A DNA stretch of 10,000 bases from positions 1 to 10,000 of the forward strand of contig JAIWOS010000008.1 in assembly GCA_020217265.1 (NCBI GenBank), given 5' to 3'. The notes beneath the pieces are model-generated. The model ran no database searches, was not told the DNA's origin, and saw only the letters and a program-made list of their open reading frames with translations. How positions within the stretch are numbered: position 1 is the first letter of the stretch; the number at the start of each line of letters is the position of its first letter. Below, piece by piece: positions 7,017 through 10,000 of this stretch. A program made the position numbers and the translations under genes. This stretch comes from Thiobacillus sp. GTDB lineage: Bacteria > Pseudomonadota > Gammaproteobacteria > Burkholderiales > Thiobacillaceae.

Positions 7017-8102
7017 ATGAATAAAAAAGCACTCATCACCGGCGTTACCGGCCAGGACGGCGCCTACCTCGCAGAATTCCTGTTGAACAAGGGCTACGAG
7101 GTTCACGGCATCAAGCGCCGCACCTCGCTCTTCAACACCGACCGCATCGATCACCTCTACCAGGACCCGCACGAGACGAACCGCAAGTTCATCCTGCACC
7201 ACGGCGACCTCACCGATTCGTCCAGCCTGATCCGCATCATCCAGCAGGTGCAGCCCGACGAAATCTACAACCTCGCCGCGCAGAGCCACGTGGCGGTGAG
7301 CTTCGAGGAACCCGAATACACCGCCAACTCCGACGCGCTCGGCGCGCTGCGCATCCTCGAAGCCATCCGCATCCTGGGGCTGGAAAAGAAAACCCGCTTC
7401 TATCAGGCGTCCACCTCCGAACTCTTCGGCCTGGTGCAGGAAATCCCGCAAAAGGAAACCACGCCGTTCTACCCGCGCAGCCCCTACGCCGTCGCCAAGC
7501 TCTACGCCTACTGGATCACCGTCAACTACCGCGAGGCCTACGGCATGTATGCCTGCAACGGCATCCTGTTCAACCACGAGTCGCCCATCCGCGGCGAAAC
7601 CTTCGTCACCCGCAAGATCACCCGCGCGCTGGCCCGCATCAAGCTGGGGCTGCAGGACTGCCTGTTCCTGGGCAACATGGACGCCAAGCGCGACTGGGGC
7701 CACGCCAAGGACTACGTGGAAATGCAGTGGCTGATGCTGCAGCAGGAGAAACCCGAGGACTTCGTCATCGCCACCGGCGTGCAGTACAGCGTGCGCGACT
7801 TCGTCAACGCCGCCGCGAAGGAACTCGGCATGAGCATCCGCTGGGAAGGGCGGGGCGTCGATGAAAAAGGCTACGATGCCAATGGCAAGTGCATCGTCGC
7901 CGTCGATCCGCGCTACTTCCGTCCCACTGAGGTCGAAACCCTGCTCGGCGACCCCGCCAAGGCCAAGGCCAAGCTGGGCTGGACGCCCAGAATCACGTTC
8001 GACGAACTCGTCGCCGAAATGGTGCGCGAAGACCTGAAAGCCGCCGAGCGCGACGAACTGGTGAAGAAGCACGGCTACAAGGCCATGGATTACCATGAGT
8101 GA
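7017..8102 (+). CDS. gmd: GDP-mannose 4,6-dehydratase
   Basis: This 361-residue short-chain dehydrogenase-fold enzyme converts GDP-D-mannose to GDP-4-keto-6-deoxy-D-mannose, the first step to GDP-L-fucose and related sugars. The NADP-binding GVTGQDG lies at residues 9-15. The catalytic residues T133, E135 (ASTSELFG), Y157 and K161 (SPYAVAK) are at the same numbers as in the E. coli enzyme. Length is normal and the C-terminus [10 protein letters not shown] is intact. The 31-base gap after epsI shows no clear promoter and the ATG lacks an obvious ribosome binding site. The last 8 bases overlap the start of the first nucleotidyltransferase gene. Its usual partner, fcl, is displaced about 1.6 kb downstream by two toxin-antitoxin pairs. 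Confidence 0.97.
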
Positions 8103-8520
8103 AAGCCTGTCCTTGTCCGGGCCAGAAGAGGCATCGGCCGAGCTGTTGAACAGACTCAGGACATTGCTTGAGGGCACGGCCGGGCTGGATTTTGCCGTGC
8201 TGGTCGGCAGCCGCGCCGCCAATCGCGCGCGTTTCGACAGTGATTGGGACATCGCCGTGCAATGGCATGCGACCGGGCCCTGGGTGCAGATCCTGGGCGA
8301 ACAGGAAACCCTCCGCAGGGCCATTGCAGAAACCCTGAATGTGACGCCCGACTGCATCGACCTCATCGACCTCGCGCGCGCGAATCTGGCCATGCGGGCC
8401 AGCGTGGCGGAAGACGGCCGGGTGCTCAAGGGTGAAGATTCGCTCGAATGGGCACGCTTTCTCACGCGGACCTGGCGCGAACTCGAAGACTTCTATTGGG
8501 AACAGTCCCATGCGTCTTGA
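8095..8520 (+). CDS. mntA: MntA-like nucleotidyltransferase antitoxin, pair 1
   Basis: This 141-residue protein has a minimal nucleotidyltransferase (MNT) fold. G38-S39 followed after ten residues by D50-W-D52 is an exact GSX10DXD metal-binding motif, and a third acidic site follows in the CIDLID segment (D89). In the MntA-HepT (type VII) toxin-antitoxin family this enzyme AMPylates the Tyr of the HEPN toxin and so neutralises it. The ATG lies inside the end of gmd (8-base overlap, ATGAGTGA) and the gene overlaps the next one by 11 bases, so its translation is probably tied to gmd. No strong ribosome binding site of its own is seen. Assignment to the family is firm from the motif and the partner; antitoxin activity is inferred. 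Confidence 0.88.
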
Positions 8521-8920
8521 CCTGTACCAGGCAGAAACAGCACGCATTGCGACCGAGCAATCCGCCTTGCTGGCCGTGGCCAGAAAACGCCTTGCCGACG
8601 GGCTGGCCCTGAGCCCGCTGGAGCAAAGCGGCGTGCTGCACGCCTTGCAGAAACTTATCGAGAATGCCATCGGGAAAGCCAAGCAACTCCTCAAGACGCA
8701 TGACGAAGTTGTACCGGTTTCAGCCTACGATGCCTTCGCCGCATTGGCGCGGCGCGGGACTATTCCCCAGGACCAGCTCCCGGCCTGGAATGCTGTTATC
8801 GGCCTGCGTAATCGGATCGTTCATGACTACATGAACATCGACATTGCGCGTGTTCAGGAACTGGTTGCTCAGGGGCGCTACGAATTCGTGACGGAATTCC
8901 TGCTGAAACCCGTTCGATGA
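8510..8920 (+). CDS. hepT: HepT-like HEPN ribonuclease toxin, pair 1
   Basis: This 136-residue, mostly helical protein carries the RX4HXY motif of HEPN toxins: R100, H105 and Y107 in RNRIVHDY. In HepT-type proteins Arg and His form the RNase centre and the Tyr is the target of AMPylation by the partner nucleotidyltransferase. The motif lies toward the C-terminal third, as in the family. ATG 8510 is chosen because the family-like sequence starts MRLDLYQ there and it overlaps the antitoxin by 11 bases; an open frame back to 8432 exists but would be read inside the antitoxin gene. With all signature residues intact the toxin is predicted to be functional. Composition drops toward about 50% GC at the 3' end. 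Confidence 0.87.
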   Translation: MRLDLYQAETARIATEQSALLAVARKRLADGLALSPLEQSGVLHALQKLIENAIGKAKQLLKTHDEVVPVSAYDAFAALARRGTIPQDQLPAWNAVIGLRNRIVHDYMNIDIARVQELVAQGRYEFVTEFLLKPVR

Positions 8921-8930
8921 ATAGGCGTGT

Positions 8931-8936
8931 GGAGAA
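8931..8936 (+). promoter_or_regulatory. Strong ribosome binding site of the second antitoxin gene
   Basis: GGAGAA at 8931-8936 lies about six bases before ATG 8942. It decides the start against an upstream in-frame GTG at 8927, and it shows that the second pair has its own translation signal, unlike the first pair. Confidence 0.6.
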
Positions 8937-8941
8937 AGTTC

Positions 8942-9331
8942 ATGGACCTGAATGATCGCGTTCGGCAGACACTGGAACAGCACGGCGGTACCCGCTTGGC
9001 CATTCTGTTTGGCTCGCTGGCCAAAGGGCGCGCGACCGCGGAGAGCGATCTTGATCTGGCCGTGCTGATGGAGGCCCCCTTGTCCGCTGAAACGCGAATC
9101 GCCTTGATGGGTGACTTGTCACAAGCAATCGGACGTCCTGTAGACCTGATCGATCTCAGCACGGCGGGTGAAGCGGTACTGGGGCAAATACTCAAACACG
9201 GCATTCGCCTGCTTGGCAGCGATGGTGACTACGCCGAGCTGATCAAGCGGCATTTGTTCGACGAGGCAGACTTCATGCCCTATCGCAGAAGAATACTGAC
9301 CGAGCGGAGGCAGGCGTGGATCGGGACGTAA
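8942..9331 (+). CDS. mntA: MntA-like nucleotidyltransferase antitoxin, pair 2
   Basis: This 129-residue MNT-domain protein is closer to the standard MntA form than the first copy. G24-S25, ten residues, then D36-L-D38 make a perfect GSX10DXD motif, with the third acidic residue D68 in RPVDLIDL. The C-terminal tail is basic (YRRRILTERRQ). It starts 21 bases after the first HEPN gene with a good ribosome binding site, and overlaps the next gene by 16 bases. It is expected to AMPylate and silence the adjacent HEPN toxin. Apart from the motifs it shares little obvious sequence with the first MNT protein, so the two pairs do not look like a recent duplication. Confidence 0.92.
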   Translation: MDLNDRVRQTLEQHGGTRLAILFGSLAKGRATAESDLDLAVLMEAPLSAETRIALMGDLSQAIGRPVDLIDLSTAGEAVLGQILKHGIRLLGSDGDYAELIKRHLFDEADFMPYRRRILTERRQAWIGT

Positions 9332-9732
9332 TTGAGCAGAAAATCGAATCGCTGCGCCGCTGCGTGGCGCGCGTCCGGCAAAAATGCCCGGCCACGGCGG
9401 AAATCCTGGCGAATGATGTCGATGCCCAGGACATTTTGACGCTGAACCTGACCCGTGCGGTTCAGCTTTGTGTGGACATAGGCGCGCACCTGATTGCAGC
9501 AGCAGACGTCCCGGCTCCGGAAACGATGGGGCAAACGTTCGATGTTCTGGCTGCACTCGGTACGATCTCCCCAGAACTTGCCGCTCGCATGAAAAAAGCT
9601 GTCGGGTTCAGGAATATCGCCGTCCACAACTATGAAGCCATCGACTGGCAGATCGCTCACGCAATCGCCACACGGCACATGGAAGACTTCTCTGCCTTTG
9701 CAGGCGCTATCGCTGACACTATGGGAATTTGA
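9316..9732 (+). CDS. hepT: HepT-like (DUF86) HEPN ribonuclease toxin, pair 2
   Basis: This 138-residue protein is a typical DUF86/HepT sequence. R99, H104 and Y106 in RNIAVHNY make the RX4HXY motif, preceded by a helical region with the family-like [24 protein letters not shown] segment. It would act as an RNA-cleaving toxin held inactive by AMPylation from its neighbour. The start is GTG 9316, with GGAGG at 9306-9310 five bases upstream, both inside the antitoxin gene. It stops 11 bases before fcl. The gene is complete and appears functional. Confidence 0.92.
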
Positions 9733-9743
9733 GTCCTGCCGGA

Positions 9744-10000
9744 ATGAAACTCACTGACAAAATCTACATCGCCGGCCATCGCGGCCTCGTCGGCTCCGCC
9801 CTGCTGCGCAACCTGCGCGACAAGGGTTACGCCAACTTCCTCACCCGCACCCACGCCGAGCTCGACCTCACCGACCAGGCCGCCGTCGAGTCCTTCTTTG
9901 CCGCCGAAAAGCCCGACTACGTTTTCCTCGCCGCGGCCAAGGTCGGCGGCATCCACGCCAACAACACCTACCCCGCCGAGTTCATCCGCGACAACCTCGC
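9744..10000 (+). CDS. fcl: GDP-L-fucose synthase, N-terminal part
   Basis: The first 85 residues of a short-chain dehydrogenase-fold epimerase/reductase are present and the gene continues past the window. The NADP-binding G11-H-R-G14-L-V-G17 near the N-terminus and the segments [32 protein letters not shown] and FIRDNL are highly characteristic of Fcl/WcaG. The enzyme turns GDP-4-keto-6-deoxymannose, the product of Gmd, into GDP-L-fucose. Usually it follows gmd directly; here about 1.64 kb of toxin-antitoxin genes separates them. The ATG has only a weak ribosome binding site (CCGGA just upstream), as expected for a gene once coupled to an upstream one. The catalytic Ser/Tyr/Lys region is not in the window. 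Confidence 0.95.

Follow-up and report, generated by a model that had tools for sequence, protein, structure and literature searches.

Two predicted type VII toxin–antitoxin pairs at the gmd–fcl junction of a Thiobacillus exopolysaccharide operon, a recurrent insertion site

The stretch of DNA analysed here (the window, 10 kb of contig JAIWOS010000008.1) comes from a Thiobacillus sp. assembly of 2.14 Mb that is 84.6% complete (GCA_020217265.1). Its genes run in the order epsF, epsG, exosortase B, epsI, gmd, mntA1, hepT1, mntA2, hepT2 and fcl, so that two consecutive toxin–antitoxin (TA) pairs, each predicted to encode an MNT antitoxin (MntA) and a HEPN ribonuclease toxin (HepT), separate two genes of the GDP-fucose pathway (Table 1). 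The pairs, mntA1-hepT1 (8095–8920) and mntA2-hepT2 (8942–9732), lie on the same strand as gmd and fcl, with the antitoxin gene 5′ of the toxin gene in both.

Table 1. Genes between gmd and fcl, with the two flanking genes. The fcl score falls below the NF047922 cut-off because the window end cuts the gene.
Gene	Product	Positions	Strand	Motif or start	Support
gmd	GDP-mannose 4,6-dehydratase, upstream flank	7017–8102	+		TIGR01472 601.4 bits, cut-off 415
mntA1	MNT antitoxin (putative adenylyltransferase)	8095–8520	+	GSX10DXD	NF047752 66.2 bits, cut-off 60; PDB 7ae2 E 5.1e-6
hepT1	HEPN RNase toxin (predicted)	8510–8920	+	RX4HXY = RNRIVHDY	NF047751 74.1 bits, cut-off 60; PF01934 68.5 bits; PDB 6m6u E 7.3e-6
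mntA2	MNT antitoxin (predicted)	8942–9331	+	GSX10DXD	NF047752 92.4 bits; PDB 5yep MntA E 1.9e-7
hepT2	HEPN RNase toxin (predicted)	9316–9732	+	RX4HXY = RNIAVHNY; GTG start	NF047751 140.5 bits; PDB 6m6u E 1.6e-20
fcl	GDP-L-fucose synthase, 5′ part, downstream flank	9744–10000	+		NF047922 E 1e-32, N-terminal 85 residues

All four TA proteins score above the cut-offs of their NCBIfam equivalog models (60 bits each), and both motifs are readable in each translated pair, the MNT proteins carrying GS-X10-DWD (pair 1) and GS-X10-DLD (pair 2). The original prediction of two complete pairs with intact motifs thus holds. PF01934 (HepT-like) matches HepT1 and HepT2, and PF18765 (Polbeta) matches both MNT proteins, while PF01909 matches MntA2 alone at E 1e-3. 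Class I of type VII is defined by PF01934 together with PF01909 (PMC7641770). Pair 2 has this combination, whereas the MNT protein of pair 1 matches PF18765 only. HepT1 and HepT2 share 27% identity over 66 aligned residues and MntA1 and MntA2 31% over 118, which rules out tandem duplication of a single pair. By sequence, both are complete type VII MntA-HepT pairs of different subfamilies.

The closest characterised system is MntA-HepT of Shewanella oneidensis (SO_3165-SO_3166; PDB 5yep, 6m6u), which has the same order, MNT first and HEPN second, and both motifs intact. HepT2 is near the Shewanella HepT, whereas HepT1 belongs to a distant subfamily (82 residues aligned) and MntA1, unlike its Shewanella counterpart, has no PF01909 match at E 1e-3; here, moreover, two unlike pairs stand in tandem inside a gmd–fcl operon. 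MntA1 also aligns across 105 residues with the MNT protein of the HEPN/MNT pair in structures 7ae2 and 7ae9, but HepT1 gave no match to the HEPN chain of that pair at E 1e-3. In the Shewanella homologues, MntA silences the HepT RNase by adenylylating the Tyr of RX4HXY (PMC7641770), and a Shewanella MNT-HEPN pair conferred plasmid stability in E. coli (PMC4621449).

The pairs fill the space between gmd and fcl exactly, as was first noted. mntA1 overlaps gmd by 8 bp, and 11 bp separate the hepT2 stop from the fcl ATG; within the insert, mntA1 and hepT1 overlap by 11 bp and mntA2 and hepT2 by 16 bp, with a spacer of 21 bp between hepT1 and mntA2. Between 6900 and 10000 no promoter-like site was found, and both terminator-like sites lie on the minus strand. 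Neither a promoter nor a terminator belonging to the cassettes themselves is seen, and mntA1 begins before gmd ends, so expression from the operon is probable. The layout thus fits read-through, without being proof of it, and the co-transcription proposed from the shared direction of the pairs and the polysaccharide operon is plausible.

Other kinds of element were also considered. The window gave no Rfam match above the gathering score, which rules out an RNA family of that database. Inverted repeats were not found between 7900 and 9900 at the settings used, and the scanned proteins of the insert and its neighbours included no product of a mobility gene (no search for integron attachment sites was made). 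On this evidence a transposon unit is ruled out, and the lack of mobile-element genes beside the pairs, remarked on at the outset, stands for the window.

To place the junction in context, gmd–fcl intervals were compared across relatives in two samples. The first sample covered 60 relatives with 42 gmd matches above the family cut-off, 41 of which were examined (the window and 40 others; G036:C13 was left out). In nine of these no fcl follows gmd within the stretch, and in two of the nine fcl lies upstream. At the remaining 32 loci, with a same-strand downstream fcl, the gap measured 4–88 bp in 19 and exceeded 150 bp in 13, the window included. MntA-HepT pairs occupied three of the 13 (window, L137, L147), 23S_rRNA_IVP/S23 genes three, ORF6N genes three (one, in L143, broken by a run of N) and FkbM methyltransferase genes two; an RHH-like/PIN pair and a Phd/PIN pair with an HTH gene accounted for one each. 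Some S23 and ORF6N copies were tested against Pfam and others assigned by likeness to these.

The order-level sample comprised 80 gmd matches, taken best first with some skipped. Twenty-two had no measurable downstream fcl (seven of these had fcl upstream), and L365, chosen for its HepT2, was excluded from the count, leaving a measurable gap at 57 of 79 loci. Ten gaps exceeded 150 bp: five held MNT-HEPN genes (L292, L294, L299, L306, L325), three S23 genes (one, L332, together with a PIN pair), one a gmd paralogue (by likeness) and one no credible gene. Across both samples, 23 of 89 intervals were occupied and eight carried MNT-HEPN; the other cargo included S23 (6), ORF6N (3), FkbM (2) and PIN-type TA genes (3, with L332 counted under both S23 and PIN-type). 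At least four kinds of MNT-HEPN occur at the site, namely the HepT1 type, the HepT2 type, the L325 type and an MNT with a HEPN-like partner (L292, L299, L306). Inserts are mostly 0.4–1.8 kb, and no integrase, insertion sequence (IS) or transposon gene was seen in the open reading frames read from them. Genome G035 carries both an occupied copy (L137) and an empty one (L130), and the genome of the window has a second gmd–fcl (L119) with 7 bp between the genes and no insert. The gmd–fcl junction is therefore an insertion hot spot, empty in relatives or filled with alternative cargo.

Several features of individual inserts were also recorded. S23 genes in three gaps (L122:7117-7597, L135:7115-7779, L149:7196-7757) are bordered by TTACAAGTTTCAAG-type inverted repeats, and two gaps of 83–88 bp without an S23 gene (L129, L144) are similar in their 3′ part, as if remnants. 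The HEPN-like proteins encoded beside MNT genes in the L292, L299 and L306 gaps are 159–171 residues long and carry RX4HXY. None of the three has a Pfam match, the two tested (L292, L306) have no NCBIfam match, and a PDB search with the L292 protein returned nothing better than E 0.5.

This turnover bears on the idea that the pairs are operon regulators, with HepT trimming or degrading gmd–fcl mRNA to tune GDP-fucose output. The pairs do lie within the presumed transcript, and a HEPN protein, MtlR, represses the mannitol operon (PMC3710099). However, relatives hold different modules at the site, 66 of the 89 intervals hold none, and the genome's own second copy is empty, which makes this role very improbable.

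Two further junctions from the same 60 genomes served as controls in a tblastn-based count, with 30 loci returned each for trpB-trpA and for rmlB and the next rml gene. In three of the trpB loci no trpA lies within 1.48 kb; these fall outside the 27 that were counted, and their next gene is Mrr-like (Pfam-confirmed in L369 only). Occupancy was higher at gmd–fcl (13/32) than at the controls (9/57; p 0.012, or 0.020 with the window omitted; as the discovery case, the window was left out in a second computation of the p values). With the three unresolved trpB loci taken as occupied, the comparison becomes 13/32 against 12/60 (p 0.049; window omitted, 0.078). No MNT-HEPN genes were found in the control gaps, against eight in 89 gmd–fcl intervals (0/57; p 0.023) or three in 32 in the same 60 genomes (p 0.044). 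The trpB gaps instead held Mrr, HicA/HicB, BrnT and MT-A70 genes, and the rmlB gaps S23 genes (3), a CopG-like gene just below cut-off (1) and no credible gene (1). Mrr, HicA/HicB and BrnT genes were seen in the trpB-trpA region of L369, L371, L385 and L386, and an Mrr-resembling protein follows trpB in L380 and L388. Since trpB-trpA and rmlB are also occupied, operon junctions in these genomes receive inserts more generally. Together with the copies between ahcY and metF described below, the controls rule out gmd–fcl as the sole junction used; it is a frequent, not unique, target.

The converse question is where HepT genes lie. The only two HepT genes above the Pfam cut-off in the whole assembly are hepT1 and hepT2, and because both sit between gmd and fcl, the placement is more than chance would give. 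Among 36 same-genus genomes, five of 27 above-cut-off HepT genes fall in this gap (two in the window; G031, G035 and G027). For HepT1, the best 80 of 167 confirmed relatives in a scan of species genomes, plus the window, gave 81 loci, which were tested for adjacency to eight marker genes; 15 of these mntA1-hepT1 loci touch gmd or fcl, five lie between ahcY and metF, three at wzm-wzt and three at slbb-wzz, and at 48 none of the eight markers adjoins. Pfam matches of the neighbours (65 upstream, 60 downstream) agree with the marker count, with GDP_Man_Dehyd 11 times on either side, followed by AdoHcyase (6), MTHFR (6), ABC2_membrane (4), Poly_export (4), Wzz (4), Wzt_C (3) and PemK (3). Two further loci are of glycan type: in L185 a pair of another MNT-HEPN subfamily stands between wzm-like and wzt-like genes, and in T. 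denitrificans RG (L186) mntA2-hepT2 and then mntA1-hepT1 lie upstream of such genes. The loci in which mntA1-hepT1 splits ahcY-metF, a methionine-cycle and non-glycan pair, are all in gammaproteobacterial genomes (L047, L062, L066, L067, L072).

These counts make it scarcely credible that common TA genes lie beside gmd and fcl merely by chance. Assuming a rough 2,500 junctions per genome, and with loci that are not mutually independent, the binomial p is about 3e-11 for the HepT genes of the 36 genomes (without the window, 3/25, 1e-6) and about 3e-22 for the mntA1-hepT1 loci (14/80, 1e-20). There is a bias of MNT-HEPN toward sugar-nucleotide and surface-glycan operons in these relatives, without exclusivity. 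The bias suggested in the original prediction is accordingly borne out, but the specificity is not, given the 48 loci without markers, the ahcY-metF copies and the trpB-trpA modules.

The same bias could reflect phage defence tied to surface glycans, in which the RNase would be freed when a phage, or changed expression of the glycan operon, disturbs MntA, and the infected cell stopped. Some TA systems act against phages (PMC12548467), and Mrr restriction-type, HicAB, BrnT and PIN-type genes lie at junctions of the same genomes. Furthermore, MntA2 matches the PADLOC candidate-system models PDC-S09 (E 6e-14) and PDC-M05A, and MntA1 one of them at E 1e-4. These matches, however, may reflect the shared nucleotidyltransferase domain alone; neither HEPN protein matched any PADLOC model, and other copies split the non-glycan ahcY-metF. 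We consider this function unlikely.

Traces of how such cassettes arrive are visible at some loci. The gmd–fcl gap of L038 (labelled Sulfuriferula; L038:8411-10800) stacks four TA-like modules: mntA1-hepT1 stands first after gmd, and then come 47 bp duplicating the 5′ end of fcl at 98% identity, a PIN pair, an MNT/NTase_sub_bind module, mntA2-hepT2 and finally fcl. Behind the cassette of L306 the gmd 3′ end is repeated over 221 bp (94% identical), and a short fcl-like start was seen by eye ahead of fcl in L034. Such traces suggest that the modules came in by recombination at the genes on either side and not by transposition. It was also observed that the 3′ end of the L038 hepT2 is 83% similar over 87 bp to the adjoining NTase_sub_bind gene.

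Occupation appears to have occurred repeatedly. On the Gmd tree, where 13 of 94 rows carry MNT, the MNT state must change at least 11 times, with the caveats that support is low, that starred branches force only two MNT changes in a grouped comparison, and that five of the 13 rows (L038, L049, L050, L073, L365) were picked for carrying HepT. The mntA1-hepT1 tree requires 10 changes of location at gmd/fcl, five of them forced by starred (well-supported) branches. These repeated changes on both trees make a single ancestral gmd–fcl insertion unlikely.

Against their nearest relatives, the four TA genes show dN of 0.05–0.24 and dS of 0.5–1.3, with dN/dS of about 0.1–0.25, values that indicate purifying selection on all four. 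Their third-position GC is 0.63–0.75, compared with 0.88 for gmd. GSX10DXD is kept in 78 of 79 MntA1 homologues and RX4HXY in 77 of 80 HepT1 homologues, one of the six search patterns having included the HXY part. The selection and the nearly always kept catalytic motifs argue against the main rival to the account given below, in which the pairs are neutral or tolerated passengers, small mobile modules at junctions where read-through is harmless, that do nothing for the glycan locus. The mixed cargo of the 23 occupied intervals (S23, ORF6N, FkbM, PIN-type TA), the occurrence of degenerate copies, the use of the trpB-trpA and rmlB junctions and the empty second gmd–fcl all favour it, and it is possible, if somewhat doubtful.

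The explanation that we favour, and to which we give an even chance, is that the pairs are selfish TA cassettes. The junction that they occupy would be one that is transcribed, tolerates insertion and belongs to an operon that is often exchanged, and they may resist its replacement. On this view, two type VII cassettes of different subfamilies have lodged between gmd and fcl in an exopolysaccharide operon of the exosortase-B type, with which they are probably expressed. By analogy with Shewanella, each HepT would be an RNase silenced by MntA through adenylylation of the RX4HXY Tyr. The cassettes may persist as selfish passengers where insertion is tolerated and the operon often exchanged; loss or replacement of an occupied allele would then be costly, and the glycan locus may be stabilised.

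Several points weigh against this explanation. Addiction would be weak should adenylylated HepT remain inactive once the genes are lost. Empty gmd–fcl alleles are common, L119 in the window's own genome included, and some cassettes decay: hepT2 is broken in L294 and truncated in L038, and in L299 mntA2/hepT2 are degenerate beside an intact pair. Other junctions are used as well, with gaps above 150 bp at 4 of 27 trpB-trpA and 5 of 30 rmlB loci, and 66 of the 81 mntA1-hepT1 loci lie away from gmd and fcl. With the window omitted, the MNT-HEPN excess over the control junctions has p 0.042 for both samples combined and p 0.12 for the 60 genomes alone. Finally, the gmd/fcl location is clustered on the mntA1-hepT1 tree (one of 500 shuffles gave a value as low), and part of it is therefore inherited, not newly inserted.

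We tentatively extend the selfish-cassette explanation to a proposal that is speculative and itself rather unlikely, namely that the junctions of obligate partner genes in surface-glycan operons (gmd–fcl, wzm-wzt, slbb-wzz) are a preferred niche of allele-addicting type VII cassettes, shared by the Pfam-unmatched HEPN-like RX4HXY family of L292, L299 and L306. A recombinant gaining an empty allele would lose MntA, free HepT and be counter-selected, so that the cassettes would help to fix surface-glycan types.

The arrangement has partial precedents. TAS islands (Makarova 2009, PMC2701414) likewise cluster unlike TA pairs without duplication, as in the four modules of L038, but they are statistical clusters along chromosomes, whereas the present case concerns a single defined junction, between two pathway partners, that is used again in different genera. 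Defence and TA hot spots (PMC12548467) similarly gather alternative defence or TA cargo at a conserved site; gmd–fcl differs from these in being intra-operon, with small inserts and no visible mobility genes. A literature search of full text, titles and abstract starts, with most subscription journals and all supplements outside it, found no published account of this arrangement, in keeping with the initial suggestion that the association may be undescribed. The term 'polysaccharide' is absent from the main text of two HEPN/TA surveys (PMC2701414, PMC3710099).

The gmd–fcl junction turns the question of what chromosomal TA genes are for into a testable case. It is one defined junction with natural empty and occupied alleles, sometimes in one genome, refilled repeatedly by unlike modules. 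If occupied alleles do not resist replacement, the junction illustrates the spread of small modules through operons with no transposase in view. If they do, the surface sugars that a lineage retains, and hence its phage and biofilm biology, would be shaped by TA modules.

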